Source: Quercus robur (lineage: Eukaryota; Streptophyta; Magnoliopsida; Fagales; Fagaceae). Taken from it: DNA of 64,000 nt. Shown here piece after piece: positions 8,559 through 49,930 of this stretch. Under the pieces are notes generated by a model. It was not told where the DNA came from, did not search any database, and saw only the letters and a list, made by a program, of their open reading frames with translations. The first letter of the stretch is position 1, and each line of letters starts with the position of its first letter. The translations under genes were made by a program, and so were the position numbers. The stretch is taken from NCBI RefSeq assembly GCF_932294415.1, contig NC_065538.1, positions 44,306,843-44,370,842 of the forward strand, written 5' to 3'.

Positions 8559-8790
8559 GAGGATTCTGGCCCTTTGCCCTTTCTGGGAAACATATTTGGC
8601 ATAATGCCCCTGTTTTGAAACTATATAGGGGCGTGCCCCTGTTTTGATACTCGATATCCGTAACGGCGAGTTACTTAAGTAACTCGATTATTGAGAAACC
8701 GAGTTGAGGGCAGGTTCTTGCCACGCTGGTGTTCCACCTTGGCTTTTGGGCAATAAAATATTCCCGCGTTACTGCTTGGAACTCGTCAAT
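8559..8790 (+). repeat. Left terminal inverted repeat of the giant MULE
   Basis: These 232 bp match the reverse complement of 49,789-50,020 position for position without gaps. I count 5 mismatches (about 98% identity), after which similarity stops. The repeat contains two complete ACTCG-N13-CGAGT boxes and the start of a third. It also contains a GGGGC-rich segment around 8,605-8,640. Confidence 0.94.
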
Positions 8791-8971
8791 GGGGAAAACG
8801 AGTACTAAAAACCCGAATAACCGATAATCGAGTTATAATGTCAGACTCGGTTATTATATAACCGAGTTTCATGCTAGTCTGACGCCATTTCACATCAGTT
8901 GGACACACGTGAAGCTTAACCCGATTAATAGGAAATCGAGTTATTAATACTCGGTTCTTTAATAGTCGAGT
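8649..8971. promoter_or_regulatory. Box cluster A: seven ACTCG-N13-CGAGT palindromes at the left end
   Basis: Boxes of exactly 23 bp start at 8,649, 8,682, 8,781, 8,811, 8,845, 8,919 and 8,949. Two have ACCCG in the left half. Start-to-start distances within groups are 33, 30, 34 and 30 bp. The cluster overlaps the terminal inverted repeat. It lies upstream of the first coiled-coil gene, whose probable 5' leader ends near 9,067 at a CATCTCAG/GTTTTC donor. A role as a protein-binding array is inferred; the motif and its spacing are seen. Confidence 0.85.
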
Positions 8972-9472
8972 TATTCTGCTATATGCAGTTCTCCTCATAA
9001 TTCTCAGATATTCTCCTCATTCTTTGAATTTTCGGTCAGGGGCACGCGTTTTCTCTCCATCATCTCAGGTTTTCCTAACTCATTCTCTTCTTTGAAATAC
9101 ATTGAGAATTTTATTATTGTGTTGGTAAACATAGTTGTAGATACTATAAAAATTTATCAATCATAATGTATGTTTTTTTGTTAGAGTTTAATTTTCATTT
9201 AATAATTTGTATTACTTATGCTGTGGTATTTTCTTGAATGAGGGTTATGTGTATTTTCTTGAATGGTGTTTTAGAGGTATATTAGTTGTTTGGTGTTGTT
9301 TGATGTTACAAGAAACGTACGAGGATCAATAGAAATGGTGATAAATGTTATGTGTGTACATTGGGTTATATTGCGTGTTATGTGTGTAATGGTTATGGTA
9401 AAATTTGAGTGTTAGTATTTAATTTTTAGCATGTAATAGTACACAAATTGATGAATGTCTTTGTCATGTACC

Positions 9473-10292
9473 GGAGGCGGAGGCGGAGTCGGGGGGGGGG
9501 GGGGGGGGAGGGGGGAGGAGAGGGGGCAAGTGCCCCCCTTGACTTGTCCAACTATTAGGGAATATTTAGAATGCTTTACCCTCCTTGATGTAGAAAAAAA
9601 AACACAAATCAGGAAAAAAGCTATCAGGAAAAAAGCTTCCTGGCCCTGCTGAAATAGAGGGAAAATGACAAGCTTACCTAAGTCAATGACACCGTGTAAG
9701 GAAAAAAAAAAGGAAACAAGGAAAAAGTTTCGTGACAGAAGCAAAAATAATTAGAAGAATTTCCGTTAGGCACAATAACACACACCAAGAGCTTTAACTT
9801 GTTAGCTGTTAGCTTTTAATTATCATGCACTTAAGCCTAGCATAATAATAATGCATTGTAGTGTCTTTGTTATATGTCAATCGATAGTCCTATATCGTAC
9901 ACAATTTTTTTATATTGTTTTTTGGTCCTCAATTTGTTGACATTTCAGTTTTAAATTGTGGGTTTATGCTATGAACTAAAATTTTAATTAGTTTGTAAAA
10001 TAAAAAGAAAGTCGAACTTTTCCTATAGTTTCAAAAACAATCAAGAAAAGATAGTGAGATGTGTATACAACTTTGCAAGTAAATTGCTATATTTTAAATA
10101 TTTTTAAAATATATTTATTTCCACAATTTATTTTATAGTATTAACTTAAATGTGTAAATATAGTTTACATAGTTTTTGTATGACACTTATAGTTGTTTTT
10201 ATAATTTTTTTGAATATATATATATAATTTTTGTTGGGTTAATATTGACTTCTAAGCTTGCCCCCCCTGAATTGAAATCCTACCTCCGCCAC
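9473..10292. mobile_element. 820-bp inserted element with 11-bp target duplication
   Basis: The direct repeat TGTCATGTACC flanks the segment at 9,462-9,472 and 10,293-10,303. The ends are short imperfect inverted repeats built on GGCGGAGG, next to G-rich (9,491-9,520) and C-rich (10,259-10,267) runs. No coding region is seen. It sits in the probable 5' intron of the first coiled-coil gene. A similar end occurs at 5,465-5,498. The superfamily is not assigned; the long duplication would fit a MULE-type element. Confidence 0.65.
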
Positions 10293-10385
10293 TGTCATGT
10301 ACCATCTTATGCAGCATTACATTATTTACCAACAATTGATGCACACTATTAACTTGATCAGTTGATGTTATTGTATTCAGTGTCA

Positions 10386-10835
10386 ATGTCTGGTTCTGGC
10401 AACCCACAACTCTATAGGCCTCACGATGTGTTCACTGCTATGGGTCGTTGCTGGGTATTGGAAGATGAGTTTAGCTATCCAATCAATCCAAATCTGCGAA
10501 ATAGTGCTTATGTTCACAATACCATGAGACAGGAGTGGGATTGGTTATTTTGTGAACAACAAATGTTTTATGATGAGTTGACTGGTTTTAAGTTGCCAGT
10601 GCCTCGGCGACTCGCATCGCAGATGCCTAGAGACACGATTGACGAACTTCGTAAAGCATTGAACCGCATAAGAGAAGAAAATAATCGAATGAAGATACGT
10701 CTTAATCGATATCGGACCCAAGTCGAGATTCGAGAGTCAGTGGAGGGAGGGTGGTATGAGCACGCACAATTCATGCAATCACTTCTTGCTGATCCCATTT
10801 ATCAGTCAGACGTGGAGATGTCAGATGAAGACTAA
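10386..10835 (+). CDS. Small coiled-coil protein 1 of the giant MULE
   Basis: I do not recognise a named family. The 149-residue protein starts at MSGSGNPQLYRPHD, just after an acceptor-like TTGTATTCAG; eight further residues are open upstream. It has a central W-rich stretch (RQEWDWLFCEQQMFYDEL), a G-x-VP patch and a predicted coiled coil around ELRKALNRIREENNRMKIRLNRYR. The tail is acidic (SDVEMSDED). The order 'aromatic/W block, VP patch, I-x-x-ENN-x-M coil, acidic tail' is shared with the genes at 11,196 and 13,701, so the three look like diverged paralogues. The upstream region is box cluster A, and a non-coding first exon is likely. An accessory DNA-binding or transposition role is a guess. 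Confidence 0.7.
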   Translation: MSGSGNPQLYRPHDVFTAMGRCWVLEDEFSYPINPNLRNSAYVHNTMRQEWDWLFCEQQMFYDELTGFKLPVPRRLASQMPRDTIDELRKALNRIREENNRMKIRLNRYRTQVEIRESVEGGWYEHAQFMQSLLADPIYQSDVEMSDED

Positions 10836-11195
10836 TCGTGTCGTGGTGTAATTAGACTTTGTTATTTAACTATTTTTGTTAACTATGTTTTAAATGTATG
10901 TGGGTCACTGTTGTTGCATTTGTATTATGTAAACCTTATTATTGATTGTGAGGACCATGCACATTATTCGTAATCTACTTTATTCCCACAGAACGCATAA
11001 AAGTCAAATATTCCCATACATGATTGATGTTTTTCAATAAGCACCTAGAACATAACAATAAGCACCTACAACATAACACAGAAAACTTAAAGTAACTTAC
11101 ACGATGTCACCAATATGCATGCATTGCATATCGAACAGTAATGCTACTAACATTATTGACTTAACCTAGACATAACACACATACCACATAGGCAT

Positions 11196-11576
11196 TCACT
11201 CTGACAGGTAGTCCTCGTAGTTGAGGACATTGTTACGTTCCGTCGGAGTGAGTTGCCGGTTCGTGGCGGCGGCCAGCTCTTCCGCTAGCTGTAGCATGTG
11301 ATACCTGGACCTACGCAGTATCATCAGATTATTCTCTTTTTTTATTTTTGTCACTGCACGCTCATATTGATGCATATTTTGTCGTGATAGTGTGAGTGAG
11401 ACACGATCAACAAGAGGCGCTCCGATTCGCACGAGATCATCGTGCAGAGCGTTGGACTCGTTCACACGAAAGTCCCACTCCCGCTGCAGTCCGGCATAGT
11501 ATTCCCTCTCGTCGGAATCTCTCTCCCTCCTATAGTTATCTGGAAAACGAGGTAGCATCCAATTGCGCATTGACAT
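11196..11576 (-). CDS. Small coiled-coil protein 2 of the giant MULE
   Basis: 126 residues, starting MSMRNWMLPRF. It shares the layout of its neighbours: QREWDFRVNESNALHDDL, then a G-x-P patch (RIGAPLVDRV), then a coiled coil with YERAVTKIKKENNLMILRRSRY, and an acidic end (NYEDYLSE). The conserved core ENN-x-M lies in the same place as in protein 1. On the minus strand the upstream DNA has TATATAAAG twice (about 11,648 and 11,693) within 45-bp tandem repeats, which could act as its TATA box. It appears to be a single exon. No function can be assigned from sequence; the gene could be silent. Confidence 0.65.
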   Translation of the reverse strand: MSMRNWMLPRFPDNYRRERDSDEREYYAGLQREWDFRVNESNALHDDLVRIGAPLVDRVSLTLSRQNMHQYERAVTKIKKENNLMILRRSRYHMLQLAEELAAATNRQLTPTERNNVLNYEDYLSE

Positions 11577-11610
11577 TGGAAAATGTGACTTATGATCGGT
11601 ATCTGTAGAT

Positions 11611-11716
11611 GTTTTGCAAGGGTAGATGTAAATGGGAGTGGGACTTTATATAGGAGTTTTGCAAGGGTAGATGTAAATGGGACTAGGACTTTATATAGGA
11701 GTTTTGCAAGGGTAAA
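11611..11716. repeat. 45-bp tandem repeat carrying a TATA motif
   Basis: Units starting GTTTTGCAAGGGTA occur at 11,611, 11,656 and 11,701 (the third is partial), an exact 45-bp period. Each full unit holds TATATAAAG on the minus strand, 70-130 bp upstream of coiled-coil gene 2. Confidence 0.8.
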
Positions 11717-11955
11717 TATTCACGTGGATGTGATTATATGTAAGGGTAAGTATTCACGTGAATAAAGATGATATGTCTCGTCATTGTATTGTTTAGTGAG
11801 GTGTTGAGGAGCACATACTAACTGCAAACATGACTTGGCTATACAGTGGCACCTGTTGGTGCACGTGGTTCGCTGAGGCAACTGTTTGATATGGATATAG
11901 CTTATGGTACAGTAGAAGGCAGGTGATGTGTACTGCAAAGGAGGTTGTGTGTTTA

Positions 11956-12330
11956 TTCACGTGAAGACTATTCAGCATTCCTATGCTTCATCTGACATGA
12001 CTTGACGAGACAGTGCTGAGTTGCATTAAATGTTTCATAAACTTTTCAAGGATGCTCTGCATCATTGAAAACGGTGCATTGCAAAAATCTGCATATTTGT
12101 GTATTGACGAGCGTGTAGGTGATATGACTAGATAGGGTTCACGTGAAGACTATTCAGCATTCCTGTGCCTCGTCTGACATAACTTGACGAGACAATGCCG
12201 AGCTTTGTTAAATGTATCATAAACTTTTCAGGAATGCTCTGCATCCTTGAAAACGGTGCATTGCGAAAGGATGCATATCTGTGTGCGCATGTGCGTGTAA
12301 GTGATATGACTGTATAGGGTTCAACAATGT
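11956..12330. repeat. Two ~182-bp direct repeats
   Basis: Units beginning TTCACGTGAAGACTATTCAG start at 11,956 and about 12,138. They run through 'CATAAACTTTTCA-GGATGCTCTGCAT' and 'GAAAACGGTGCATTGC', with scattered differences. A third, partial match appears near 12,412-12,450 (CATAAACTTTGAAGGGATGCTCTG, then CACGTGA). The array is upstream of coiled-coil gene 2 and is rich in CACGTG-like G-box cores. Confidence 0.8.
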
Positions 12331-12450
12331 GACGCACTGTTGAGCAGCACATGCAGCACTGCAAAGTGTATAAGTAGAAATGGTGGACAGCTCACCCCCA
12401 AAATCAATGCATAAACTTTGAAGGGATGCTCTGTATTTTCACGTGAGTGT

Positions 12451-13700
12451 GGATGGGTACTTGTGGTCAGGGTTAAACAGTGCTAAGCTATCCATGGTAG
12501 CTACACTCATTGTTCCCTATGGTGGTATTTGGCAAGTGGGATTGAATCCCTGTTGATAACAACATTTGGTTTTGTAATGGTTGGCAGGATTTCGTTGAAC
12601 ACCATTCTATCTGTTATGTTTATTTTCTAGTTTTCAGATGTGAAGGAAAATCAAGCTTCCATGTTCTTATATTTGATAAGACTACCATTGAGATTCAATA
12701 TCCACCCAATAACAACTGTAAATTGGAAGATCATCAGCTATAAATAATAGACTTATATGAAGATGATAGAAACATATCCCTTAGCTGATTTGCCCATAAA
12801 ACATGAAGCCAGACAAAAGTTTGTTACGAAAGTAACAAAAAACTTTCTTCTACATAAAGAGGAAGACAGAATGAGTGGTTGGCCTGATTTGGATGAGTCT
12901 GTATGTAATGTATTTATATAAAGTAGGACAGTTGTAGAACTAAGATACACGGATTCGGGTATATGATACAGCAACTGATGGTGTCATATATATGAATTAT
13001 TTGTATTATTGAATCATATGTGTGGTTAGTATGTGTGGTTTGGATGAGTCTGTATGTATTGGATATATTAAATTTTTCTACAAGTAATGTGCAATAAATC
13101 TAAGTTGGGTGATGAGTGTTATGTGGGTAACATTTCAATTTACACAGAGAGAATATTGGAAACATCAACATTTCTAAGCAGAGGACATTTTCCAACCAAA
13201 GCACAAGAATCATATGTAGCAACAAAGAACAACAGGGAAAGAATGAATTACCAGCCTACTACACTTAGCTAATCCATTGAAAACATTGCAACATACTGAC
13301 ATAACAATTTAATATAGTACCAGTTTCACGGAATGCATGTTGGAAGGGAGTATTATCTTGAACAAAGGTGTGTTTTTACACCTCACCGGTGATGGTCTCA
13401 GTTGGGCCCTACTCTACTTCGGCGAGTCCTTGCTTTAGGAACCATATGGTTTTTGTGTGAAAGAGTGGTTGGTGTGTGTGGTTTGGAAGAGTCTGTATTG
13501 TAGAATGTATGAAATTTTCAGTTTAAATTTTCATATGTAGCAACAAAGAACAGCAGGTAAAAAATGATAAACTGATTTCATTTAAACTTAGCGAAAAGTA
13601 ATGAATAGCTTATCTTTAGTAATGCAAAAGTTGAACGTACATAATCATCATTTGTCAGACGTTAAGAACAACATTTTGTAGTGCACAGAATGTGTAAACA
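12451..13700. other. Non-coding stretch between coiled-coil genes 2 and 3
   Basis: No convincing gene is seen; the longest frame, 13,087-13,272, is short and featureless. The phrase 'TGTGTGGTTTGGA-GAGTCTGTAT' recurs (13,019-13,056 and 13,458-13,492), as does 'CATATGTAGCAACAAAGAACA' (about 13,212 and 13,533). This hints at an old internal duplication. Confidence 0.5.
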
Positions 13701-14315
13701 TTAACAACAACGTCTAATGTTCGTAGGTAGAAATTTCTGGAAGTCATCATTGCTTGAATCTGAGAAGTCTGAAATATCTCTTTCATCATCTAACGCAGTA
13801 ATTTCATTAATAGACTTCATGGCTCGCTCTTGCGCCTTCCCCTTTAGATGCTTCCTAGCTTTTTGGATCGCGTGAAAACGGTCTAGTCGCCTTTGCATTT
13901 GATTGTTCTCTTGTTCAAGACGCGCAAGTATGTTGGCAGGTTCATCTCTAGGTAACTCGGCTGAGCGTGCCTTAGGAACTCGTAACCCGTGCCATCGACA
14001 ATACACCTCCAACTCACACCTCTTCTCGTATAGGGTTGACCATGGTGGTTCTGCTACGGTGAACTCTATTGCGGTTGTATCTGTACTTAGTTTTGTGGGT
14101 TTGCCGACCATGATGTGTCCGACGCTTCCAAGACTCTCGTACGTGTATATTGGCATATTAATGAAATCTCTCTTCTTTCCGACCCATTTCCCTCCATAGT
14201 GGTCTGTGTATGTCTGTAGTTGTTGATCTGCTGGAGCTTCTGATGATCCATATGTTGAAGTAGATCCAAACTTGTTTCGCATTTTACGCTTTGACATTGA
14301 GACGCTGCGACTCAT
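13701..14315 (-). CDS. Small coiled-coil protein 3 of the giant MULE
   Basis: 204 residues, starting MSRSVSMSKRKMRNKF. A basic N-terminus is followed by a conserved-looking middle (YCRWHGLRVPKARSAELPRDEPANI) and a coiled coil (LARLEQENNQMQRRLDRFHAI). The tail is Asp/Ser-rich (ERDISDFSDSSNDDFQKF). The VP patch, ENN-x-M coil and acidic tail place it with the proteins at 10,386 and 11,196; it is longer at the N-terminus. The basic start followed by a coiled coil would suit a nuclear protein (inference). Just upstream (14,376-14,390) is TATAACCGAGTTTCATG, which matches part of box A5 and its flank, suggesting a decayed box in its promoter. Confidence 0.68.
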   Translation of the reverse strand: MSRSVSMSKRKMRNKFGSTSTYGSSEAPADQQLQTYTDHYGGKWVGKKRDFINMPIYTYESLGSVGHIMVGKPTKLSTDTTAIEFTVAEPPWSTLYEKRCELEVYCRWHGLRVPKARSAELPRDEPANILARLEQENNQMQRRLDRFHAIQKARKHLKGKAQERAMKSINEITALDDERDISDFSDSSNDDFQKFLPTNIRRCC

Positions 14316-15402
14316 AGCTTACTCAATCTACGAATTTAGTGGGAGTAGAAAGAAAGTCATTATTGTGGTGCATTTATAACCGAGTTTCATGGTTCAAGCA
14401 TTACAATCAAAATTTAGTAGAGCTTGTCATGTCAATACAGGCTAGAAAAACACTGTATGAAGAGGGTCATAATTGTTACCATTGTCATGTGTCTAGATTC
14501 TTGTGGGGACGACACCAATTTAAATATGAAATTGGTGTCTAATTTTCCTCCATCTGTCTAAATTTAACTGGGATCAATTGTAATTACGCTACTATTACTG
14601 ATAGAAGTTAGGTGAAAGTTAGCTGTGCTGCTATTTTATTAATTTTTTTTCCCCCACACCTGTGTATTTTCAGGTTCACCTCTCCTTCTACAATAATCAA
14701 AACCCAAGATTGTTCCTCTCCCACTCAACTGATTACGCGACCTTAACATACAGCTCCCCTATTTTTCAATGAATGCTATTTATGTATCTTATATAGGAAG
14801 AGGTTCTCCATCTATTCCGATTTTACTTTTCTTTACAAGTTTAATGGTCCTGGTTTATGCTCTGCAAAACCAATTCCAACCATTCCTAAGGTTTGATTAC
14901 TCATCTATATATATATATATAAAACCGAAGTCTCTGCTGGCACCACAATTTTCCACATCAGCATCATTTAAAAAAAAAAACAAAAATTCTAATTTATTTT
15001 TTTCTCTAAAACCTAATAATAATACATAAAAGTGATAAAACCCAATAATACAAACCCAATTCTCTTCAAGCCGACTCCAAACTTCTAAAAAACCTAAAAA
15101 ACACACAGCCGACTCCAAGTTTTTGAAAAACCTAAAAAAACACACGGTGAAACCTTCAACTACCTCCTTCCTTCTCTCTCACTCCAATCTCTATCTATCT
15201 CTATCTCCAATGAGACCCAGAAAACTCATAAATCAACCATTGAAGAGTGAAAAAAAAGTTTTCAGAGCTGTGATCCTTGAACAAATAACATTCTTGGATG
15301 ACAAAGCAGTCTTTTTATTCAATTGGTGATAAGAACACATATTTCTCTCATAAAAACTTATCTACAGTTTCTGTCCCAAGCTCTTTTGACCAAGACGATG
15401 GC

Positions 15403-15693
15403 TTATATATAAGTTTTTCTAGCACGGTCATACGGACTCATACGGCCAAACTGGGTATTCTGGATGTTCTGACTAACATTCCTGTTGCAGCATATTCCTT
15501 CGCCTTCCTTCATCAATATACAGCATCGACTTTTCTTTGTGTTGCAGCTAGGACAGGAATTCCGAACATATGGATGTCGGAAACCATAAGGAAGGTTTTT
15601 TCCATCGAACGAAGGTTTGTCACAATTCACTAGCGCTAATATAAATGCCAATAATGTAAATGGTACAATCCATTTATACTCCATATTTTGCAT
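15403..15693 (-). CDS. Hypothetical secreted cysteine-rich peptide inside the Helitron
   Basis: 96 residues, with a start at MQNMEYKW or at the internal MEYKW (15,684). A hydrophobic N-terminal stretch (IVPFTLLAFILALVNC) looks like a signal peptide. It is followed by a short chain with paired cysteines (SCPSCNTKKSRCC and GICCNRN). The part after about residue 72 may be intron or UTR. It is probably a captured host gene fragment. I do not recognise the family, and expression is unknown. Confidence 0.4.
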   Translation of the reverse strand: MQNMEYKWIVPFTLLAFILALVNCDKPSFDGKNLPYGFRHPYVRNSCPSCNTKKSRCCILMKEGEGICCNRNVSQNIQNTQFGRMSPYDRARKTYI

Positions 15694-18221
15694 CTAAAAA
15701 TTTTCTTTCTTCATTAAGAAATATTACTATATAATTTTAACAATTACAGTAAATAGTGGAATTCCCAAAAACAAGTGTTTAACCATCACCATAATCTCAA
15801 CTGTATTGCTATATTCTTCCAATCATTGGCATCCAAACGCTCTTAGACACTGAATATTGTGGAAGCGTTGAAGCAATAGCTAAGAGAGGTTGCCTTTCTC
15901 AGTTATATACGTAGCTATCATTTGTTTGTTATGACTATAAGAATGCACGCATCGGCCGCAGTTGCATTTTTTGCTTACATTCTTTTCTTCTAAAAGACTA
16001 TATCCATACAAATTATATATAGGAACCCATAATACCATCATGCTGTGGCAAATACTCTCTGAGAAATGCTATATCGGTATATCTATAATATTTTCACAAT
16101 ATTTTTATAACAAGTCTCAAATGGTAGATTGCTACAAAAAGTACTAACACAATTCAAACTGCATCAAACGGATCTAGCTTTTCCAGCCAAATTTTTTATG
16201 GAGATATTAATGAAGGTTCTCTGATTGTTTGAGTTACAAAAGCAATGTGTCCTTAAGTGCATCTGTTTGTCAGGTGGTAAAATCATTTTGGATCTATACA
16301 TCTGTGTGTCCTTTATTGTTTATCAGTTTCTAATTGACTTGTAGATAACTTTTACGTACAAATTCATATATTGTGAGCTACATATCATACGTTATAATAT
16401 TAAGTACAAAATTGTTATCAATGCTTTTAGGGAATAGAACCAATCTATTCAAATTTGATAATGGACTACTATGAGGGAGTCCAACCTCGAACAACATATG
16501 AATATAATGCCCTGTTTGTTTAATTATAAATGTTTTTTATTAGGAAATTGGTGATTTTCAAGAAAATCATATCATTTTTCTGTGTTTGGTATTGATCTTG
16601 AAAACGAGCTTAAAAATGTTTTCTAACCAAAAGTATAACTCTGAAGTATTATCTTATTTTTGTTTTTTTTTTTCTTCTTCACATGTATTTAGGGTTGTGT
16701 TGGGAATCAGGAATATTTATATAAATTGGATTTTTTGGCTTAAGCGTATATTAGATTTAGGGATTAGGTTTGCACAACATAATTAAGGGAATGATCGATT
16801 CAATTTTACTTTGAATTAAATTACATATTTTCATTCATTTTTTAAGTCATTATACCATCAATCAAAATAAATATACGTACTTTTTTTCATTCTTTGCTTT
16901 CTTTCTTTCTTTTTATTTTTATTTTTTTATATCTTTTATCCTAATATGTCAATAATTTTTTAATTTCTAGATTACATTATTCAAAAAAAATTTTTAAAGT
17001 CCCTCTATTTTAGCACCTGTACATCAATCAAGTTCTATTTCTTGGCTATATCTGTTAGGTATTTGACAAAGGGCGTACAAGAGAACTGTTGTACATGTAT
17101 TGGAATAATAATTGAATTGGCATAAACTATTTGATGATGGCCCATGGTCACTAAGCTGCATCTTGCTGTTCAATGTGTCATTAAGTCATGTATTTCTGTT
17201 TTATAACTTATATTCATGGAAGCTACACTTTTTGCTATATGAAAAATGGGGTGTGATGATGGGGTGAACTGACTTGATTGTATTTCTGAAGACTAGGTTT
17301 GATTACTGATGTATGGATTTTTGTTACCTGATTGTTTGATTCTCTACTGGTAGATGGGTGCTTTAATAAAAATATGTTGGATTGCTATAATTGGAAATAC
17401 ATACCTATGCAAATATTTATGTTTGGTCTGTTATCCGCTCATCCTATAACTCCCTTGATATCCCTGCTCCAGGAGGTATAAAACAACGTAAGAAAGCTTG
17501 GCAAGCTAAAACTTTTAAAGTTACTTCCTTTCCAATCGAGTCTAAAATCTTAACAATTTATGCTAGGTTTGTTAATTCTGCTTCCAACAATCTCCCTCTA
17601 TGTTCTTGATATTTGGTTCTTCATTTTGTGAATTTTAATTATTTTTATTTTGCTTCGTTCTTCTCTCTTCAAATATTACGATTATTTGTTGGTGATATTT
17701 TTGCATTATGGTGTTTTTAATACAAGGCTACTTTTGAATCAATCTGTATCTATGCTAATGGTGTATATATTGAGAACTTTAATAATAATGGCATGTAAGA
17801 TTTTGATAAAATCATGAATCTTAACTTTTGTTGAGGGCGGCAAAAGTAGGAAATGAAAATTCTAGAATTCTGCTTTTGTCTGCATAGTTTTGCAAGGCAG
17901 GTTGCTTATGATGGGGGAGCTTTAGTTGTAGAGCAGAGAGAAGAATGAAGCAATCCAAGAGAGACTCTTTGTGATACAGTGTAGAGTCAACAACAATATG
18001 CCTTCACCTATTTTCTCATATTTAATATGACAACTTAAACAAGTCTTATGAAAAAGGTTATTTTTTATTGATAAAATATAGTTAGCAAAGCTACCCCCAG
18101 CAATTTAATCAGATTTTGTTGTTGATTTACAAAACTCTTTGAATATTATGATCATTTGTGTGCATGTCATATATTTTACTTTATGTTAGTGTTTCTTTTA
18201 AATGTGATATGTAATCTTGGT

Positions 18222-18440
18222 CACTATACACACACACACCTACCTTGGTTGACCAGCTCAAATCCTAATGAAATTTGTATATTCCTTTTTGTGTGAATTA
18301 TTCCTTAAAATCCAAAGCGAAAACGTCCATATATATACACACACACACCTACCTTGGTTGACTAGCTCAAATCCTATTGAAATTTGTATGTTCCTTTTTG
18401 TGTGAGTTATTCCTTAAAATCCAAAGGGAAAATGTCCATT
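18222..18440. repeat. Two ~105-bp direct repeats within the Helitron
   Basis: Two near-identical units begin in a CACACACAC run and read 'CTACCTTGGTTGAC-AGCTCAAATCCTA-TGAAATTTGTAT-TTCC'. They start at about 18,228 and 18,339 and differ at a few positions. They lie just upstream of the Helitron 3' hairpin. Confidence 0.8.
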
Positions 18441-19312: not shown

Positions 19313-19619
19313 CTAGGCTTTTAGCACGCGCGTGCTCAGAGTCTCTTCAATTTTTTGGGTAAGGGTTCAGTTACAGCAGTTATTGTAATATTGGATTATT
19401 ATATTTTCCAATCATAAAAAAAATAAATAAATAAATAAAAATGAAACAAATAAAAAAAACCCTAAAGGGTGTGATGAGTATTATGTGCGGTGAATCACAA
19501 TGCCGTACTTTTTTTTTGTTTGGAAAATGTAGTAATCCCAAATTATGATAAATGCTTTAAATTAATCCTTATCCATAAAATTAGAACAACCTCTGTGCAC
19601 GTGCGTGCTCAGAGGCTAG
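19313..19619. mobile_element. Two opposed Helitron-like 3' ends about 300 bp apart
   Basis: On the minus strand, AGCACGCGCGTGCT (19,323-19,336) is followed by AAAAGC-CTAG and then T. On the plus strand, CTCTGTGCACGTGCGTGCTCAGAG, a hairpin with one mismatched pair, is followed by GCTAG and then T at 19,620. Each looks like a Helitron 3' terminus. Their tail-to-tail arrangement is odd, and no 5' end could be assigned. Confidence 0.4.
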
Positions 19620-27882: not shown

Positions 27883-27908
27883 ACAACAGTTATTCCACTT
27901 TATATAAG

Positions 27909-38800: not shown

Positions 38801-41484
38801 TTTTAAATATTTGTCTAGTCTTTTTAAAGAATCAGAGGTACAAACAATATCATTATTACATTTGTTTTCCTAAATAAATGTAAATTAACTAATAATGGGT
38901 TGGGCCCTAACTATGAGGAACAGGGCTGGCCATAATCCCAATCGTGTTGCAATATCATATTCTCTTTGTCTATGGACCAAACCCAAATTTATGATAATCC
39001 ATAGATGTGCTAAACCCAACCCGGTTATACTAATTCAATGAGACTGCTCCACTTATATTTTCTAAAATAGCTTACTTTTGTGACCATACCATGCCTCAAA
39101 CAATCTCAGTTTTAGGGCAAATTTCATATGGAAAACTAAGTGGGGTGATATTACAACAGCCACATCAATGAGCTCCTAGCTAGGAAAAAGCCAATGATTA
39201 ATTATTAAATTCTATCATGAGTACTAATTTAAAATGCAACTTTGATTCACTGTTATTTGACCAAATATAAGTGTAGTAAATTAACATGACCAAGTAACTT
39301 ACCACTACACACTCTTGGTGTGATGGTCACTCCACAAATTTACTACACTTAAAGGTGAAAGGCAACCTTAAGGTGCCAAAAGAAGGGGGAAAAAAGATTC
39401 GGTTACTTTCTTCCTCTTCTCTCAAGAACTTTTTTAGGAAGCCCATTATGAAAAAAAAAAATCCTACAATTCTGTGTAATTCAATCAACTTTTGCAAGAT
39501 ATGGACTGGGTTTTCCGAGGAAAACACCAAGCTAGCTAGGGACGGTACTTTAAAGTATCCATAACTAATTGGTACTCATTACCGCATGTTCAAAAACAAT
39601 TTGGCAAACCTAAAAATAAATAAATATACCCTAATGAATATGAAAATGTTCTCTAAAATGAAATGTTCTCTAAAATGAATATCAAAATATTGATCCAATG
39701 ACTCCACTCATCAAAAAATTCTCATAATGCATGCAGCAACACACATATATTGTCAATCCATAAAAGAAGCATCGAATTGTTGCCTTACCATTATTTCCCA
39801 ATACGCCGAGTCGCGTGTAATGTACCGTCTCGTCGTCTTTCGGTACGACTCCATGTAAGCAGCAAGGTATGTCGTGTCCCCATCCAATGCCGATGCATCA
39901 GCAATATGTTCCTCTCTATGGGCCCATCGGTCAATGTAGACAGCATGCTCTTGCACCCAATCCTTATCTAGTTTACCTTGGAGGGAGATTTTGTGGAGAT
40001 GAACGGACGTATCTACAATATCCGGTGGCACTTGCTTCATCCCAAACTGACGAAAGACACGTTCCGGATGATGATCCTCTACTATCCAAAAATAGATCAA
40101 TGGCACATTGGCCCTCCATATTTGTCGGCCAGCAGTGCAATATGGGGGCAACAACTCTAGGACATCGATGTAGGGCTCCCAGACAACCTGCATAAATGGT
40201 CAACAATAAGATGCCTGCCAACAATAAGAGAAGCTCAGAGTGCTACTAGTGTGGCAGCCACATAATAAAAAGCTATGATGCTTGAATCAGAAAATATGAT
40301 CAAGGAGAGAATTACTTATTAATTATGGTTGTCACCTTATACCTATGTATGATTTGAGTTCTTTCTTAGATAGAGTTGTTATTTCATGTCATCGAAAACA
40401 TTTTCTTATCTGTATACGTATTCCTTTATTGGCTCGAGCTATAACTTGCCATCAGTAATCTGTCTACAATTATAGCATGCATGCTTACTTTTTATGTATC
40501 ATTGAATTTCCAATAATTTTATATTTATGGTCATGAATCATGAACTGCATGAATGTGGTTCCCCACTAATTATCTCTAACTTTGGCAAAGATTTGTTTGT
40601 CGGAAAAAGGGAAGGTGACTTGAGAAAATCCTGATATATAATTTACACTATCAGACATTGATTCACAATCAAAATTAAACGTAATTCTACCATCAGGAGA
40701 ATTTCTTATAGTGCTGGATTTATGAGTTAACATATTATTCTTTGCACTTCAATTAGAACAAACAGTATCACTCGACGATCATATGTGGACAACGTGAAGC
40801 ACGATAGAACAAACAGTATCAATTGTGACATGAAGCGGTAGAATACCTGGTGTGCCCGTATACTCGACAGTGACGCACGATACGCAACTAGCACATGTGT
40901 CGCATGCTCTGTCGTGCTCTTCGGCCCCTTCCATCTAGTAAACATATAATTTCAAACAATGCTCATTAGTTATCATCCAAATAATAGATTCCAAATAATT
41001 ATCATGCAAATATTCATGCCACTGTAGTACATTTTCAGTGTACTTGGGTTGCCTATTCTTTAATAAAAAGTTCTAAAGTTATATATCAAAAAAATAAAAA
41101 ATAAAAAATATCATGCTAAATTTGGAACTTTTCTTCTCTAGAATGAAAGACAGAAAAAGAGTGGCTCCTTTATTACTACAAGCATGGTGTAATATCTTTT
41201 TTTCTTTTCAATCTTGGATTCCCATTGGGTGCACCTATAACTTACCAGTTAAAAAAAATAAAAATAAAAACAAGTCAAAATCAATGAGGGACTTATTGTT
41301 TTGTAAGAAAGACTTATTGAAAGTCCCAGATTGAAATGAAAGGGGATACTATACTTCCTCCTCAATAAATACCTCTCCATCAAGAATTTCAAACATGAAT
41401 ACATTGTTTAGTTTTTGCAAGGGCCTGACATTGTTTAGTTTTTAATGTTGGGCTAGCTTATGTGTAAACATAACATATGCATGA

Positions 41485-41533
<49 letters not shown>

Positions 41534-44500
41534 TTGTTACTTATCAAAAAAATAATATACAAGGTTTTCTTTTGTAAGAGAATAAAAATATTTAGTAATT
41601 AAAAAAGGGGCCAAAACTAATCAAACTGCTCAAAACCAGGAAGCGGTTTGACTGGTTTTGAGCCCTTCCAATTTTTTCCTGGTTTTTTAATGTGGACCAT
41701 ACCAGTCTAGGTCCCAGTTCACTGGTCTGTAGTCCACTGGCCGCTCTGGTCTGCTTTAAAAATTTAAGCTCCTTCAACTTTGCATTGTTGGATAAGTGAA
41801 TATGGTGCTTTACTCAGGGAAATGACCAATTGTGGAGATGCCTTCTGAGAATTAAATACGAGCAAGATTCCCAGTGGACTATAGACGGAGTAGAATTTCC
41901 ACACGGAGTGGGACTGTGGAAAGGAATAAGAGCAGGTTTTGGGAGTCCTATAAATTTATTAGATTTCAAATTGGGGATGGCATGATGGTGAGGGTATATG
42001 GCCTGATGCATGGTGCGGGAACAAGTCTTTTAATTGGTTAGTTTACGTTAGTTTATGATCCTTTCCAAATTGCAGCTAACAAACATGCTAGGGTTAGTGA
42101 TTATTTGGATGTTAGGGGTAAAGTAGTGCATTAGTACCCTATCTATGTTAGGCAATTGCAGGATTGGGAATTATTGTCTCCCTGCCCTGTTTGATTTACT
42201 GTATTCTCAATGGGTTCAGCTTTGGACAGAAGACAGCATATTGGAAACTAGATAGAAATGGTGACTAACTCCATGTGAATGTATCTTCAATTTCTTGAAT
42301 TTTCTTTACCCTTTTCGTTTGTAACATTTTGATTCGACAATGGAACCCCACAATCACAAAACCAACTTGTGATTAGGGAATATGGGTCGTTCACGGTGGT
42401 GGATAAAGTTGGGATTTCGATAATTTGGTTGGGGTTGGTCTGGTATTTGTCCTTCACCGGGTAGTAGAGCAATTATAGAAATTGTGGATCATTATAGAGA
42501 AATTGGAGAAATTGTCACATTGAATACTATTTTATATTATTTATTGACAAAATATAAATTCTCCAATGACATAACCGTACATAATTTCATTTAGTATAAT
42601 TACTTTCTAGTAAGAGTTTTAGCATGATACCAAAATTTATTTCTCAAAAGAATGTAGTCAAAAAAATTTCTTTCGACTGAATTCATTCTACCAAAGTTTA
42701 AAATCTATTTGCAGTTGTCTCCTCAAATGCTGCATTAGAAGCTACAAAAGGCAGATTGAACCTATGGCATTAGTAAGCATCTCATGACCATGGACCCTTT
42801 TAGGACAAGAGGCCAGTCCCTAAGCTAATAGAGGCAATTTTGATTTGAAACAGGCCTATAGCTTCATTAACATATCAAAGTTACCATCAACCCAAAAAAA
42901 AAAAAAAATCAAAGTTACCAGAACTTCCATTACCTTCATAACCATTTACTTGGCAATGTATGCAACTACCAATCCACATAAAATGTTTATGCTACACATC
43001 AAAAGTGATACCAAATAATTCATGAGGTCTTTAACCTTTAGACTAAACAACAATGACATACGGCAGAAAAATATTCTACCACCCAATCTAGAGACTGAGA
43101 TAAAGGAATGCCAAGAATAACAATCATCGATGGAAATGCTAAGAGGATTTAAATTAATTTCTAAGCTCTTACTAACCCACCGTGATGCATATTGGTTAGC
43201 CAAGTCCTACAATTAGTGCCAACGAGCTCTTGACTCATGTACATCTCATATATCAATTTATGTATATTCTATGATGAATGATTTTTGAAAACCAAAAAAC
43301 CAATACTTCATTTCTAAACACAATTATCAAAAATACATTAGATTGAAATTTGAAGGAGGAATATTAAACCCAAACCATCTGAGAAGTGAAAACCCAAGGT
43401 TATCTATGATATCCAACCATCATTCTGGGTTTCCACCACTTATTTTACTAAAAATTAGAAAGATCTAGACATAGAGAGATTCTTGACTTAGGGATTTGTT
43501 GAAAGTATATGATTTAATCTCTTCTATCTTCTTCTGTATTAGAGGTGTGATATACATGTAATATATACTTATTTGTCTTACCATATAAAAATAGTTAAGC
43601 ATAGGGTAAAGTTAAGTTATGGCCCTGATTCTATTTTTTATTTTTTTATAATTTCATAGTTGGAGTGGGGGATTTGAACCCTAGATGTCTACGTCGGAAA
43701 CAATAGGAGGTGCCAATTAAACTACAAGGCTCTTGCCTAGGTTATGGCCCTAATTATCTTGCAAATTCAGAACTACTACCAGGCAGAAAAGGACATTGGC
43801 CAAAACAACTATGCTTTAGCATTGCCAATACATTTTAGCATTTCTAATATTAACTAAATGTAGTAAGATATTGGAATTTAAATTGGAATCAGACTAACCA
43901 AAATAATAATAATGCAAATATAATGATTGACATAAGGTGAAGAAATTTGTCTTTCGCAAAGTAGCATGCTTTAATCATAGAAGCAACATAGTCTTACAAA
44001 TATACGTAGGCACCACAAATCATACCAAACATTTATTGAAAAAAAATAAGAGTACTTGACAATTGTATCAAACTACTCAAATAACATACCGATTGGCAAG
44101 GGGACCTGCCTCCACTGGCGGTAGTGGCAACCTCATAACAGGGCATATCAATGGGAACCTCGAATACGCCCACAGCTGCACCAACATCACTGCTCCACCA
44201 ATCTGCTTCGCCTTCGACTCCGATGCCTTGCATAAGTGCCTGTACAACCAGGCTAATGCCCCACTACCCCAACTGTACCTCTTCGCGTTGCTGATTGGGT
44301 TTAGGAACTGTAGAGGCAGCACCGACACCCGGTCTGCTGACTTATCCATAAACAAAATCGTCCCCAACCGATCGAGTATGTGATAGCGCGCATGTTGCTG
44401 CACCACCTCATCAGTAGCATCCGCAGCTAGGGGCCCACTAAATAGTGCATCCAGCCACGTGAATCTGAGCCTCGCCCCAGCAAGGATAGAGGTGTTCTCA

Positions 44501-45575
44501 TGGGGATGCGGTATCGGGTCTGGTGGACGATGACCCAATAACTCAAGACACAACGTAGGCCAATCCATCTTCACAGCCCCAGTAATTGGCAACCCATCAA
44601 CAGGAACCCCTAGCATCACCTCAATATCTTGTAAGGTGATGCTCATCTCTCCATGCGGTAGGTGGAATGTGTGCGTCTCCGGACGCCAACGCTCAACTAG
44701 TGCTGTGATCAACGCATGATCCACTTCCAAGTTTGGGACCTTGAATAACCCTTCAAAACCCGCCTCAGTTATGTACCGAGCAATCCGTGGGTCAAGCCCA
44801 TGCTCGGGTAACTTGCAACTTCAGCGTCTGCAGTTTAGCACGCCTGGCACTACCTGCACACGAAAGAGCATTGTCTTAGGATAGTGCACACGAAATAACT
44901 ATAACAATGCTACATAATAATAATATGCAAGAAACAGTAGGCTAACTAGTTAGTCCCGAACATTTTGCAAAACGTTAGTTACAATGTTAATTGCTTATTC
45001 GCTCTACCTCAATAGCAGATAGGATCAAATTCAACATCAATGACATTGTTTAAAATTATCACTAAGGTGATGGGCATCATGTTTTGAAATGAATGAACAA
45101 AGTGCCTCACTATGTCAAATGGAGTAGGGAATTAGGAATCAAGGTCGTTAGTTGTCTTATGTGTAGCCACGCGTAATTGTGTGTGCATGTTTGGAAAAAA
45201 GAATAGTAGCGGATTCAATTATTTATTGATTACTATAGCTTCTAAATGACATGTACTGACTTTGGACATGTACTGACTTTGAACATTTCTGCTCCACACA
45301 ATGTTCTTGATTATTTATGCTTCATGCCATTTTCTCTTTGGATTAAATACAATTCTGCGTAAACCAAAACATTCTACCATGTCCAAAGTCTATTTGCTAA
45401 GAATCAAAGAACCCTACAAAAATAAAATTAAATGATTTCGACATGTTCAAAGTTCAGTACAACTACACACCTGACCGGCTGGCGTCTCCCAAAGCAGCGT
45501 GGATCGATGAACCGGCTGCCGCGTCAACTGTGTACCAACCGTCGGTCCAGGATCCACATTTCCCACTTGCTGCAT
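35806..45575 (-). CDS. Plant mobile domain (PMD; MAIN/MAIL-like) protein gene, six coding exons
   Basis: Minus-strand exons: 45,575-45,471, 44,853-44,090, 40,934-40,847, 40,187-39,789, 38,147-37,892 and 36,221-35,806. All junctions from exon 2 onward have GT-AG and keep phase. Exon 1 has VHRSTLLWE. Exon 2 carries the PMD core: DPRIARYITEAGFEG, ALVERWRPETHTFHLPHGEMSITLQDIEVMLGVPVDG, then AWLYRHLC and QLWAYSRFP. Exon 4 has VVWEPY, FWIVEDHHPERVFRQFG and DIVDTSVHLHKISLQGK. Exon 5 adds an RGG-like Gly/Arg tail and exon 6 a Pro-rich tail ending RRSLRTDIHPPGCGTG. In plants, MAIN/MAIL proteins act in transposon silencing and genome stability, and transposons also carry this domain. In exon 2, TTGCAAG (7 bp, near 44,816-44,825) looks inserted and shifts frame; without it the N-terminal frames join. 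A non-coding first exon lies near 49,461-49,720. Confidence 0.85.
36500..36933. mobile_element. Foldback element in a PMD-gene intron
   Basis: The left half (36,500-36,710) and right half (36,720-36,933) are diverged inverted copies across their whole length. The outer part reads CAAAAAAACAAT-TAGCATTTT and the middle part AACTATAGTGGC / CCTATAGTGGCG. No clear target duplication was found. It is a non-coding MITE-type foldback sitting between PMD exons 5 and 6. Confidence 0.75.
39789..40187 (-). other. PMD gene exon 4, best-conserved C-terminal block
   Basis: This exon encodes 133 residues in phase on both sides (acceptor TTTATGCAG, donor ATG/GTAAGG). It holds the VPLIYFWIVEDHHPERVFRQFG and DWVQEHAVYIDRWAHREEHI blocks typical of the C-terminal half of PMD proteins. 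It is listed separately because it is the single most diagnostic piece of the dispersed gene. Confidence 0.85.
41790..42260 (+). mobile_element. LINE ORF2 relic in a PMD-gene intron
   Basis: The frame reads LWRRLLRIKYEQDSQWTIDGVEFPHGVGLWKGIRAGF... and, after frame breaks, HARVSDYLDVRGKVV and RQLQDWEL. This is the region between reverse transcriptase and RNase H of plant L1-type LINEs. It is short and broken, and lies between PMD exons 2 and 3. Confidence 0.7.
42480..44089. other. Rest of PMD intron 2
   Basis: Apart from the SINE-like segment at 43,632-43,737 I see no feature. An oligo-A run is at 42,893-42,908, and the sequence is AT-rich. Confidence 0.5.
43632..43737 (-). mobile_element. 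tRNA-derived SINE
   Basis: On the minus strand, GCCTTGTAGTTTAATTGGCA resembles a pol III A box. About 40 bp later GGGTTCAAATCCC matches a B box. After CCACTCCAACTATGAAATTAT the sequence ends in an A-rich tail. This layout is that of a plant tRNA-related SINE. Confidence 0.65.
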
Positions 45576-48500
45576 ATCTGACACGCATGCAATCATGTTA
45601 GACACGTAAACACAGACAAGTAAACACAGGCAAGTAATAGTGAAGAAAAGCTTGGCTTTTGCAAGTAAACACAGGCAAGTAATTGAATGTTCTACAACAA
45701 ACTCACAGAAACAAATACAGAGAGACAGAGTGAAAGAGAGATTTCACAGAAAATTGAAAACATATAATTGCTAAACTGAATTATACATCATGCATCTATA
45801 TACACTGATTTTCAATCGATTTAATCATATCAAGGAAGAGTTAAAGTAAAACACTAAAATATAAACAACCTAACGTTCATGGCTGCAAGGCATAAACATA
45901 AAAGACACATAGTTGCAAATTGTATAAGCAACCTAACCAACCAACCAAGTTGAGATTCAATGTCTAAATCAAACAAAGTAAACCAACAAATGAACAAAGC
46001 ATAATGCAAACCAAACAATCAATTAAGCACCACAAAAAACACCATTCTAGAACACTAAAACATAGCTCTAAAATTAAAAGGTACCCAATTACCAATTAGC
46101 CCTAAACAAGCCCTGCCACCCATGAGTACTAGAATTTCCCTTCTTTAATCGAAGTGTAAACTTCCTTCCTTTTGCTTTTGCTTGTTCCCATACTTGACAT
46201 CACACTCTAAAAGAAATTTTATTTAATAAAGCAAGAACTGAAAAGGGTTCATTGTAACTTAGTGGCTACTGAGGTGTGTTTTCAACAAAAAAAGGGGGAG
46301 ACAAACATGGAAATAGGTAAAGGTTCCATTAGAGACTCTACTGCAATGGACATCTCACTCACAAGCACAGCTTTCGAGGCAACTAATAATAGTCAAATTA
46401 ATATTGAGCTTTATTAAATGGATTAAACAACTGTGAGACCTATACCATCAAATGATGGTGTGTGCATAGTTATGTGTCAAATGAACACTGAATTGGTGAC
46501 CATAACAGTCCAAGACCTTTGCTTTCTTCTCTTTTAGGTTTTGTTCCTTCATTTGTTTTTATGAAGTCGATTATTTTTTCTCTTAGAAGTCAATTATATT
46601 TTTATTGGTCAAGTCTTGGTCGTAAATTAGGTTATTAGTAATTCATTTCTTTTCTTCAAATCAAGCAGATTTTTTAAAATCAATAGTTGGCTTTCCTAAG
46701 TCAACTAGAAATAGGGTCAAGGTAGTTAAAGGCGAAAGGCAACCTTAAGGTGCCAAGGTGCCAAGGCCTTATATGGCCCGATGCCCTAAGGTGTGAGGCG
46801 ACAAGGCCTTTGGTGCAGCCAAGGCCAGCCCATTCCAGAAGACCTAGAATTTACCAAATAGTCTTCATTCTGGGAGAACTTAATTAAAAGCATTCCAACA
46901 GTGAAAAACATAAAACAAACAATCAAATAAGTGTCAAGTCAATTCAACTTTAGATCGACCAACGAAGGTCCCAAGATAACTCTTCATCATCTAAAATTCC
47001 CAAATTAAAAGGTCTTTAAAGAAAACTGCAATCAAATAACAGTACATTCAAGTTTAGACTAAGGAAGGTCCCGATAGAACTCTTCATCATCTGAAACATC
47101 CCAATAGACTAAGCCAATTACATTCCCATCACTGACTCGTACGTTTTTAATTTCTTATCATTTTTCATCTTTGACTGTTCTCATCTGATTCACCCATGGT
47201 AATGCCTTCTAATTGTTTAATCAATTGGCTTATTCAATTGGTTAAAAAAGAGCTCTCAATCTTGTGCTGTTAGAAAAGACTTAACAACTAACTAGTTAAA
47301 AAAAAGGAAATTCAGCAACCTGTTACAAAAACTACAAAGCAGCATTTCACATTTACAAGCTTAGATGCTCCTGCATCAAAAACTGCTATCGATAATCTTA
47401 TTGCAAAATGTTTACAGTTTACAAACAGACATGGAAATTTCTGACTCAGCTGGTTAAGTGGGGTCACATGTCAAGTGTGATGCACGCACGTGCGCCACTT
47501 TTTTGTTAATATAACACCAACACATACAGCAGGACATTGTAGCAAGGTTATAAAATTGGGGAGTCATTAACGAATTTCGAAAGCATGGAGGACATTGTAA
47601 TCAGAGTAAAAGTTTAGGATCGAACAGTGTAATTTATCCTAACAAAAATTTTTCTTTTCACAGCTACTCAATCCCTACACTAGCATGGTGGTATTATCAA
47701 AGATTTTCCAGGATGGAATCATCAAGGCATCTCATTCTGATAAGAAATACTAGGATAGTGAGCCTACCATTGTTGTTGCTAATCCTTTCAATTTCGATGA
47801 TGGGTACAGATGGCGTAAATATGGGCAGAAGGTGGTTAAGCTACTACAAATGTACATGTGTGGGTTGTAATGTCAGAAAATGGGTTGAGCAATCTCCTGC
47901 CAGAGAAATGCCTAAAATTAAGTACGAAGGCAAACATAATCATGAAATGCCTAACAAGCTTGCAAAAGAAATTAGTGATTCGCAATATCTGGCCGGAAAT
48001 ATGAACATTCTAAGTCACAATTGGAAACAAAAAGTGACTGTGAGGAGGAAGGTGTTGCAGAAACAAGAAGTTAATTCCGACACACAGAAATCAATACCCT
48101 AGGGAAATAAGTATAGTAGGCCAAACCACCAAAAAAATAAATAAATAAACAAAGCCCTAGGTCCTTCAGAAGCACCCTAGAGGATGTACTATTTCCATTC
48201 CCAAAAGCCACCACAAATCTCAATGCTCCCTAACCTAACCCAACCTATTATGAAAGGATTGGGTGACCCTAAAAGGCCACTAAGGCCACTAACTTCCCTT
48301 TTCAACCCCAAATGTAATAGATGATAATAATAATAATTCGATGTACTTAGTCAACAAACATAACCCACAGAAGCTGCTAATCTGACACAAGACAGGAGCT
48401 TCAACGGGCTTTAATACCAAATTTGATGTAGCCTTTTTAGGAATTTCAACACTAAACTACATTCTTGATAACATATTGATTGTGTTGATGACTGTTTGGT

Positions 48501-49460
48501 ATTTAAACAATAAAAAAAACATCAAATAAACAAAGATAAAACATTGGGCAATCACACGTAGGCTTTCCTAAGCACTCACATTTAGGTACGAGATAGCAAT
48601 TGCGATTGAAAAAAGTTGGAATGTTCATTATATAGGCTACTTCTAAATCCTTTCTTACAAAGGCTAGGAATACTAATAACCAAAAAAATAAAAAATAAAA
48701 AAAAGTACTTAAACTTCTAAGACAATTCTAGTCTCTTAAGACAATCAATTATGCATCTGTACACAAAATGTAAGTGACTTTCAACTGATGTGGTAAGTAA
48801 GTTTATATGTTCCCATATGATATTACAAGGATAATGACATGAAAAAAAAAAATTACAAACCAAAACTTAGATGTTGAATAAAAACAATATGGCACAGTTA
48901 CAGCCGTAAGCAGAGTAAATGGCAGCAAAGGTTTTAGGATGTCCATGGTCTGTGTGTAGATATATGCGTGCATATCCATTATACACACATTATATCTATT
49001 ATAATAATAACTAAACAGAGTGGAAGCTTGTAAAAGCCAGTAACTTTGAACCTTGTAAAACCAATAGCTTCTCAATTCAACATCATTCAGCATTGAATTA
49101 AAAAGAAATTTTCCCTAATTCAAAATCATGACATAACTTGTGACATACTTTCTGGAAAAAATAGAGATTAATTTGATACACTTTCAAACTATATGAATTA
49201 CAAACCAATTTCCCCTAACAATGAACACCGTTGTCATGCTAACTCTATTTTACAGGAATTTCTGCCCTAGATGTGCGTCATAAAACACTTCAAAACCAAA
49301 CCCACTTCAAAACCAAACCCAACAAAGCTAAAACAGCAACAATAATTATGAATACAGATACACAACAATCTAACAGCGAAAAACTTAGGAAGCCACACTC
49401 AAATCAGATTACATGCAAAGGGAAAAAATTACAAATTTGAACTCAGCATTTACAAATTAC
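45576..49460. other. Large 5' intron of the PMD gene
   Basis: Bounded by the proposed leader donor (AAG/GTAATTTG, near 49,460) and the acceptor CGTGTCAG before 45,576. It holds the broken WRKY fragment at 47,684-48,102. Near 46,725-46,830 is a repetitive stretch with AAGGCAACCTTAAGGTGCCAA; the same phrase appears at 39,360-39,380. I see no other gene. Confidence 0.5.
47684..48102 (+). pseudogene. Broken WRKY transcription-factor fragment
   Basis: One frame reads NPFNFDDGYRWRKYGQKVVK. The next frame reads SYYKCTCVGCNVRKWVEQSP...KIKYEGKHNHEMP. Together they are the C-terminal WRKY domain of a group I factor, with the CX4C and HNH zinc ligands. The few residues normally between the two parts are deleted, which shifts the frame at about 47,845. 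A stop (TAG) also lies upstream at about 47,754. WRKY proteins bind W-box DNA; this copy cannot make a proper domain. It lies in the 5' intron of the PMD gene on the opposite strand, most likely captured by the element. Confidence 0.85.
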
Positions 49461-49720
49461 CTTAATACGTTTGTAATCCTTTAACTCCGAAGACAGATTG
49501 GGTTGAGCTTCGGCTGTGGTGAGATTGAATAAGTGTGGGTATGGGTATGGGTATGGGTTTCGCTTCAACTTCGGAAAGGGTCTACTGAACGGTTTGGTTT
49601 GGGTGCGGGTAAAAAGAGGAGAATCTGACGGTGGCCACTGACGGTGGCTACTGAACAGACTGGCGGTGGCTTAGAATCGGACTGAGGAAGGGAGAGAGAC
49701 TGTAGACTGCAGAGGAAGGA
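49461..49720 (-). promoter_or_regulatory. Probable non-coding first exon of the PMD gene
   Basis: The minus strand is rich in C/T with exon-like composition. It ends at AAACGTATTAAG/GTAATTTG, a good donor. It lies just inside the right terminal inverted repeat, downstream of cluster E in the gene's direction. This mirrors the probable leader of coiled-coil gene 1 at the left end. It is inferred from position and splice pattern only. Confidence 0.4.
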
Positions 49721-49775
49721 AGCCAAACAGTTTTAGAGACGTTACATTTAAAAACTGGTTCATATTACGCACATA

Positions 49776-49930
49776 ACTCGATTTCCAAATTAACGAGTTC
49801 CAAACAGTAACGCGGGAATATTTTATTGCCCAAAAGCCAAGGTGGAACGACAGCGTGGCAAGAACCTGCCCTCAACTCGGTTTCTCAATAATCGAGTTAC
49901 TTAAGTAACTCGCCGTTACGGATATCGAGT
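49776..49930. promoter_or_regulatory. Box cluster E: three ACTCG-N13-CGAGT palindromes at the right end
   Basis: Boxes start at 49,776, 49,875 and 49,908. The last two are the mirror copies of boxes A2 and A1 within the inverted repeat, 33 bp apart. They lie about 90-145 bp inside the element end and upstream of the PMD gene's probable first exon. Confidence 0.85.

Follow-up and report, generated by a model that had tools for sequence, protein, structure and literature searches.

A 64,000-nt stretch of Quercus robur DNA (contig NC_065538.1, positions 44,306,843 to 44,370,842; hereafter the window) contains a giant transposable element in which a short inverted repeat, ACTCG-N13-CGAGT, recurs at both ends and in the interior. 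This raises the question of what reads the box, and why its parts are not conserved equally. Comparison of related copies showed that the two pentamers (half-sites) are nearly frozen and that, in autonomous elements, the 13-bp spacer (N13) often changes faster than the DNA around it, which is a new finding. We found no description of this box or of oak MULE ends in the open-licence literature searched by title or abstract (subscription papers were outside the search).

The box in the window and in the oak genome

The window contains 44 exact boxes, versus 0.03 expected by shuffling, and 0 of 100 shuffles reached 44. With four boxes that have one half-site mismatch, the total is 48; two-mismatch boxes (six inside the element) were at background level. 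A sequence-only reading had counted 48 boxes in five clusters with a constant spacing of 13. Both statements held, the clusters being as it gave them, and no exact ACTCG/CGAGT match with a spacer of 0-12 or 14-30 was present in the window. All 48 boxes lie within positions 8559-50020, the span of the element with its terminal inverted repeats (TIRs). In the list below, ORF stands for open reading frame and PMD for plant mobile domain.

8549..8558: left target site duplication, GCCACTTTGA, 10 bp
8559..50020: giant Mutator-like transposon (MULE), 41,462 bp, ends GAGGATTCTGG.../...CCAGAATCCTC, with inverted arms and flanking duplication
8559..8803, plus strand: left TIR, three exact boxes, 90 bp from tip to first box
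8649..8971: cluster A, five exact boxes and two with one mismatch (8811, 8919), left end
22299..23170: cluster B, 14 exact boxes and two with one mismatch (22441, 23019), diverged tandem units, 5' of a Transposase_32-type ORF
27563..27882: cluster C, seven exact boxes, between the divergent transposase (minus) and RNase-H1-N-domain (plus) ORFs
27901..27906, plus strand: TATATA within TTTATATAA (TATA-like), 18 bp past the last box of cluster C
32982..33912: cluster D, 15 exact boxes, four tandem units of 210-211 bp and a part unit
49776..49930: cluster E, three exact boxes, inside the right TIR
49776..50020, minus strand: right TIR, three exact boxes, 90 bp from outermost box to tip
50021..50030: right target site duplication, GCCACTTTGA, 10 bp

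The element is a MULE, since transposase domains, long TIRs (245-bp arms, 97% complementary), and a target duplication are all present. Within clusters, 22 of the 43 gaps between neighboring boxes measure 6-17 bp. Cluster D adjoins what looks like a minus-strand 5' region and has no named gene. The sequence-only reading had noted that the ends and the fronts of internal genes share the box. We saw this arrangement, at ends and upstream of ORFs, in two element families (see below), and the coupling of transposition and gene control that it suggested is a plausible hypothesis.

The genome scan covered 785.7 Mb, with the window on contig C5. The exact box was found 8286 times, versus 434 for the reversed control pattern. 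Spacers of 0-12 together gave 4547 matches (control, 6849), and the enrichment expected for N13 was thus seen relative to these spacers (8286 versus 4547). The view that boxes do not occur beyond the element was correct for the window but not for the genome, and confinement to copies of this element was contradicted: the box marks many ends of oak MULEs and of miniature inverted-repeat transposable elements (MITEs).

To describe these ends, we used 20 loci, which were hand-picked from the first listed places on contig C1 and are not a random sample. Inverted ends surrounded the boxes at 13 loci, 10 of which had TIRs plus an 8-10-bp target duplication (seven exact at 9-10 bp) and three TIRs only. 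In the 10 loci with both features, the first box (at most one mismatch) was located 90-93 bp from the left end in nine and 89-93 bp from the right end in eight. In short MITEs, too, the distance from the ends to the box is close to 90 bp. A genome-wide search anchored on AAAATGGGC detected 286 + 298 box-bearing ends, and a second anchor detected 710 + 726; each control gave 0. Among 100 listed ends of the 584 found with AAAATGGGC, the box was exactly 90 bp from the predicted terminus in 69 and within 1 bp of this distance in 82, in a search that permitted 31 spacings; these ends are related to each other and are therefore not independent trials. Six pairs of ends on C1 and C2 enclose 31.6-33.2 kb in five cases and 42.2 kb in one. 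The TIRs of the families have common blocks such as AAACTANNTAG. Thus, many MULE and MITE ends carry the box as a subterminal mark in fixed register, and it is not private to the element in the window.

Half-sites and spacer in related copies

Cluster C was compared between the window, used as the reference, and 17 copies of its own family (family 1); three of 20 fetched stretches (L060, L062, and L063) were dropped, having no box and being unalignable to the window. Differences amounted to 16/1137 in half-sites and 351/1482 in N13, with 228/2617 in the other cluster bases and 390/4030 in the flanks. When the labels were shifted along the region, the N13 rate was reached by 0 of 591 shifts, and a half-site rate as low was seen in 2 of 591. 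We also compared N13 with four-fold sites in the first 900 bp of the transposase frame of the same copy. N13 was higher in four copies: 21/91 versus 3/117 (p 4e-6) and, in the further copies, 23/91 versus 6/117, and 9/91 versus 1/123 in two.

The same pattern was detected near the left end of two copies of a second giant family (family 2). Their left and right parts were compared, leaving out the middle of the second copy, and are ~99.7% identical where both were read. Here, N13 differed at 10/52 positions, half-sites at 0/40, and other bases at 2/674 (hypergeometric p 5e-11). The first left box has four alleles among four family-2 copies. The left and right TIRs of the window element differ at eight bases; a single N13 accounts for four of these, and the half-sites for none. 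Tandem units within clusters behaved similarly, with 60/143 (N13), 3/110 (half-sites), and 67/393 (others) in cluster B, and 76/338, 0/260, and 168/930 in cluster D, where the N13 excess is only mild.

The claim that N13 varies freely was therefore true but incomplete, because the spacer changes faster than its surroundings in several comparisons and has a compositional preference. In the window, N13 tends to a T-rich/A-rich symmetry, which was higher in 39 boxes of a genome sample. A hairpin reading of N13 was set aside, as pairing in the window was only mildly above column expectation, although the greater symmetry of the 39 sampled boxes would favor it. Between families 2 and 1, N13 sequences matched at 9.3 of 13 positions versus 7.7 for shuffled ones, so the two families have some preference in N13 in common.

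Element genes and the second giant family

Besides the boxes, the following ORFs were identified in the window element.

10353..14318: left module, ORFs 10353-10832 (plus), 11199-11645 (minus), and 13704-14318 (minus)
20267..21172, minus strand: Transposase_32 (PF20167) ORF, frame disrupted compared with P0122, a 404-aa relative
23963..26602, minus strand: MuDR-type transposase, 879-aa open frame, with DBD_Tnp_Mut, MULE, and SWIM domains
28245..28679, plus strand: ORF with an RNase H1 N-terminal (Cauli_VI) domain
39756..40199, minus strand: PMD ORF, C-terminal part
44080..44820, minus strand: PMD ORF, N-terminal part

The transposase domains PF10551, PF03108, and PF04434 scored above cut-off and a zinc knuckle below it. 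A profile comparison of Transposase_32 with PMD did not support a relationship (probability 0.6%). In a search of solved structures, the best match of Transposase_32 had an E value of 0.72, and the transposase had no match. ORF 47554-48099 contains a partial WRKY domain (profile positions 21-59) and is perhaps a captured fragment.

The transposase search scored 51 of 1690 candidates, and copy numbers are thus lower bounds. At least 21 copies are at least 81% identical, and four of these, the window copy among them, lack stops. Family 2, at 63-67% identity, has at least 30 copies, 22 of them without stops, and 28 copies score within 1323-1355 bits. The high proportion of stop-free frames among the scored copies and the narrow score range point to a recent burst of this ~32-kb element.

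A family-2 copy on C2 is 31.6 kb long, and two copies are flanked by 9-bp target duplications (TGTTAATGA and CCATAACTA). The family-2 boxes (19 exact and 10 with one mismatch) form five clusters, two terminal and three internal. Of the internal clusters, one precedes the Transposase_32 ORF, one precedes B3-domain ORFs, and one lies between the transposase and the RNase-H1-N ORF. Tip-to-box distances are 91 and 90 bp, and the extended motif, TAACTCGAT, is stronger than that of family 1. At the family-2 locus L036, two B3 DNA-binding-domain ORFs (3681-4031 and 4400-4807, minus strand) lie downstream of a box cluster; none was detected among the scanned ORFs of the window element.

Identity between the window element and family 2 is 67% for the transposase, 58% for Transposase_32, 68% for the RNase-H1-N protein, and 72% and 63% for the N- and C-terminal parts of PMD. 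The left-module ORFs are 89-93% identical. At the DNA level, collinear pieces of the left module (10300-14461), including non-coding ones, are 81-90% identical to family 2, versus 72-78% for other aligned pieces. Four-fold-site divergence is 7-24% in the left module and 40-50% in the transposase, RNase-H1-N, and PMD frames. This suggests exchange or a shared recent acquisition of the left module. Its 205-aa ORF (13704-14318) has 242 relatives, with 64-98% identity among the 120 matches listed.

Outside the element, an interrupted long interspersed nuclear element (LINE) adjoins it at 1132-5396, where ORFs in two frames encode endonuclease, reverse transcriptase, and RNase H domains. Two inverted-arm pairs (98%, 133 and 147 nt) at 56903-57728 perhaps belong to an unrelated MITE, and an ORF at 62266-62652 bears a C-terminal piece of the Mlo family domain. 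Rfam and tRNA scans of the window gave no matches.

Readings of the box and known systems

The box is probably a bipartite recognition site of a dimeric DNA-binding protein from the giant oak MULE lineage, most likely the zinc-finger domain of the transposase. The sequence-only reading had envisaged a dimeric protein on two half-sites, and the locked spacing and conserved halves fit such a site; together, they suggest a protein dimer that reads ten bases. The near-constant 90-bp register in short elements argues for a role in transposition, and the box arrays in front of ORFs argue for regulation by the same protein. We consider the transposase the likeliest binder because every mobile copy requires it. 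In this model, the terminal boxes would be the assembly point of the transposition complex, which would explain why nonautonomous MITEs carry the box. At the gene-front boxes, the same protein would control promoters by activation, autoregulation, or the blocking of silencing marks. Since it would read only the ten half-site bases, scrambling of N13 would keep binding intact, and lineages with scrambled N13 would shed identity to the small RNAs of silenced relatives.

We extend this model, tentatively, to the spacer. Autonomous giant MULEs may hold ten contact bases and the length of the spacer (13 bp) constant but let the spacer sequence diverge from about three-fold to tens-fold faster than nearby DNA, so that each box stays legible to their own protein and not to the small RNAs of silenced relatives; this is possible, though we would not call it likely. 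Escape from homology-dependent silencing is our preferred but unproven explanation of N13 turnover. It accords with the arms race with RNA-directed DNA methylation that PMC10398659 describes for VANDAL non-coding regions.

Several observations weigh against this picture. At the right ends of the two family-2 copies compared above, N13 was identical (0/39 differences). An N13 excess over comparison bases was seen in only two of seven close family-1 pairs (window/L044, 3/91 versus 1/159; L053/L054, 9/91 versus 2/159) and was absent or slight in the remaining five (4/91 versus 9/159, 1/91 versus 1/159, 2/91 versus 2/159, 1/91 versus 5/159, and 3/91 versus 6/159). None of three MITE-end groups showed N13 acceleration: N13 diversity was 0.056, 0.123, and 0.204, versus 0.065, 0.153, and 0.186 in the neighboring interval, in 81 of the 100 listed strings (those of lengths other than 54 nt and three of TTAGTTAGTTGG type were excluded). 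The value for a small family-2 group in this comparison was disregarded because left and right ends are mixed in it. The four-fold counts are small. Seven of the 20 sampled loci gave no TIRs, and the 90-bp distance in the listed ends stems partly from shared ancestry. Moreover, the element is a mosaic, so cluster and transposase may differ in history, and a role as binder is conceivable for Transposase_32, PMD, or a host protein.

Could the spacer simply be damaged? A bound protein or nicking might injure N13, and error-prone repair would then change it with no selection on its sequence. Ten of the 12 differences in the 766 bp at the family-2 left end fall within N13, nine of these ten being transversions, and the transversion bias of N13 relative to other cluster bases (17 transitions/29 transversions versus 23/15) is marginal (p 0.048). 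However, the flanks outside the cluster share this bias (25/38), the length of N13 is constant, five of seven close pairs lack a clear acceleration, and MITE boxes, which are presumably bound too, show none. The MITEs thus make a mutagenic cause that acts only locally less credible and favor turnover in autonomous lineages, with the close pairs divided, and we regard targeted mutagenesis as unlikely. Still less probable is passive inheritance, in which one ancestral box-bearing TIR was copied around, so that conservation and register reflect common descent and the internal boxes are relics. The shared TIR blocks and the tandem duplications within internal arrays agree with it, but half-sites have changed far less than neighboring bases of the same copies, for which drift alone is insufficient; we rate it lowest of all.

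Other readings concern the binder. An accessory protein similar to TnpA or VANC (Transposase_32 or PMD) may bind the boxes in place of the transposase, removing or blocking silencing marks and activating element genes, with the terminal boxes in the same role or as an aid to transposition. In their expansion as tandem repeats and their position in front of several ORFs, the arrays are similar to the VANC target regions described in PMC5735166, a separate TNPA protein binds CACTA subterminal repeats (PMC2613891), and both families retain the Transposase_32 and PMD ORFs. Against this, DUF1985, the domain of VANC proteins, was unmatched in the 25 element ORFs scanned (introns and short exons were outside the scan), the VANC21 and VANC6 motifs (YAGTATTAY and AGTTGT[CA]C) were not enriched in the window (four matches each versus 3.8 and 4.2 expected by shuffling), and the short MITEs with a box near 90 bp from their ends argue for a transposition role. 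We consider an accessory binder doubtful, though a serious competitor. A dimeric oak transcription factor whose sites were recruited as element promoters would explain why clusters lie upstream of ORFs, one beside a TATA-like site. A host promoter site, however, needs no near-constant distance from the ends of short elements, and this origin seems very improbable.

The box is a compact signature by which a large number of oak MULEs and MITEs can be recognized and counted, and it links nonautonomous copies to their likely drivers. It is also a natural experiment, in which a single site combines a near-constant part with one that changes faster than its surroundings. If spacer turnover is an escape from small-RNA silencing, an arms race between transposon and plant would be readable base by base and testable with small-RNA and methylation data.

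The signal is real and strong. The element that carries it, a giant MULE, is of a known class, and its control site is unusual. MuDR/Mutator and long-TIR plant MULEs share with it MuDR-type transposase domains, long TIRs, and 9-11-bp target duplications. MURA binds a ~32-bp TIR motif, and the TIR holds both the transposase site and the promoter (PMC3310237). The oak element differs in its 41-kb length, its several accessory genes, and a bipartite 5-N13-5 box arrayed at the ends and inside. MULEs with multiple or internal TIRs (Ferguson and Jiang 2012, PMC3310237) also carry additional copies of a terminal signal; there, TIR stretches of at least 100 bp are repeated, whereas the oak element repeats short boxes. 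An ungapped repeat search gave 23 inverted pairs and 22 direct families; among the pairs and the 20 direct families listed, no further TIR copy of at least 100 bp was present. Muta1 of Aedes aegypti likewise has motifs repeated inside the TIR, namely nine 12-bp tandem repeats, plus a 10-bp terminal palindrome; internal arrays are undescribed in the available part of that account (PMC5225508). A PMD gene within a MULE has precedents, for which an anti-silencing role was speculated (PMC5418596). The oak PMD is a separate ORF and not a fusion, and boxes are undescribed in the portion of that source at hand.

The closest parallels in arrangement lie elsewhere. VANDAL/VANC elements of Arabidopsis have short motifs in tandem-repeated, fast-diverging non-coding regions near element genes, as outlined in PMC5735166 and PMC10398659, but the oak element keeps long TIRs that are not degenerate and a palindromic box with a locked spacer. 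CACTA elements (En/Spm, Tgmt*) with TNPA have repeated subterminal sites for an element protein, which is putative in oak; they belong to another superfamily, for which PMC2613891 gives CACTA ends of 13 bp and a duplication of 3 bp, versus GAGGATTCTGG ends and a 10-bp duplication in oak. Because of the chance-level VANC motifs, the lack of a DUF1985 match in the scanned ORFs, the long similar TIRs, and the non-CACTA ends, we assign the oak element to neither. Its boxes may nevertheless have a mode of action that partly resembles that of VANC target arrays and of CACTA subterminal repeats.

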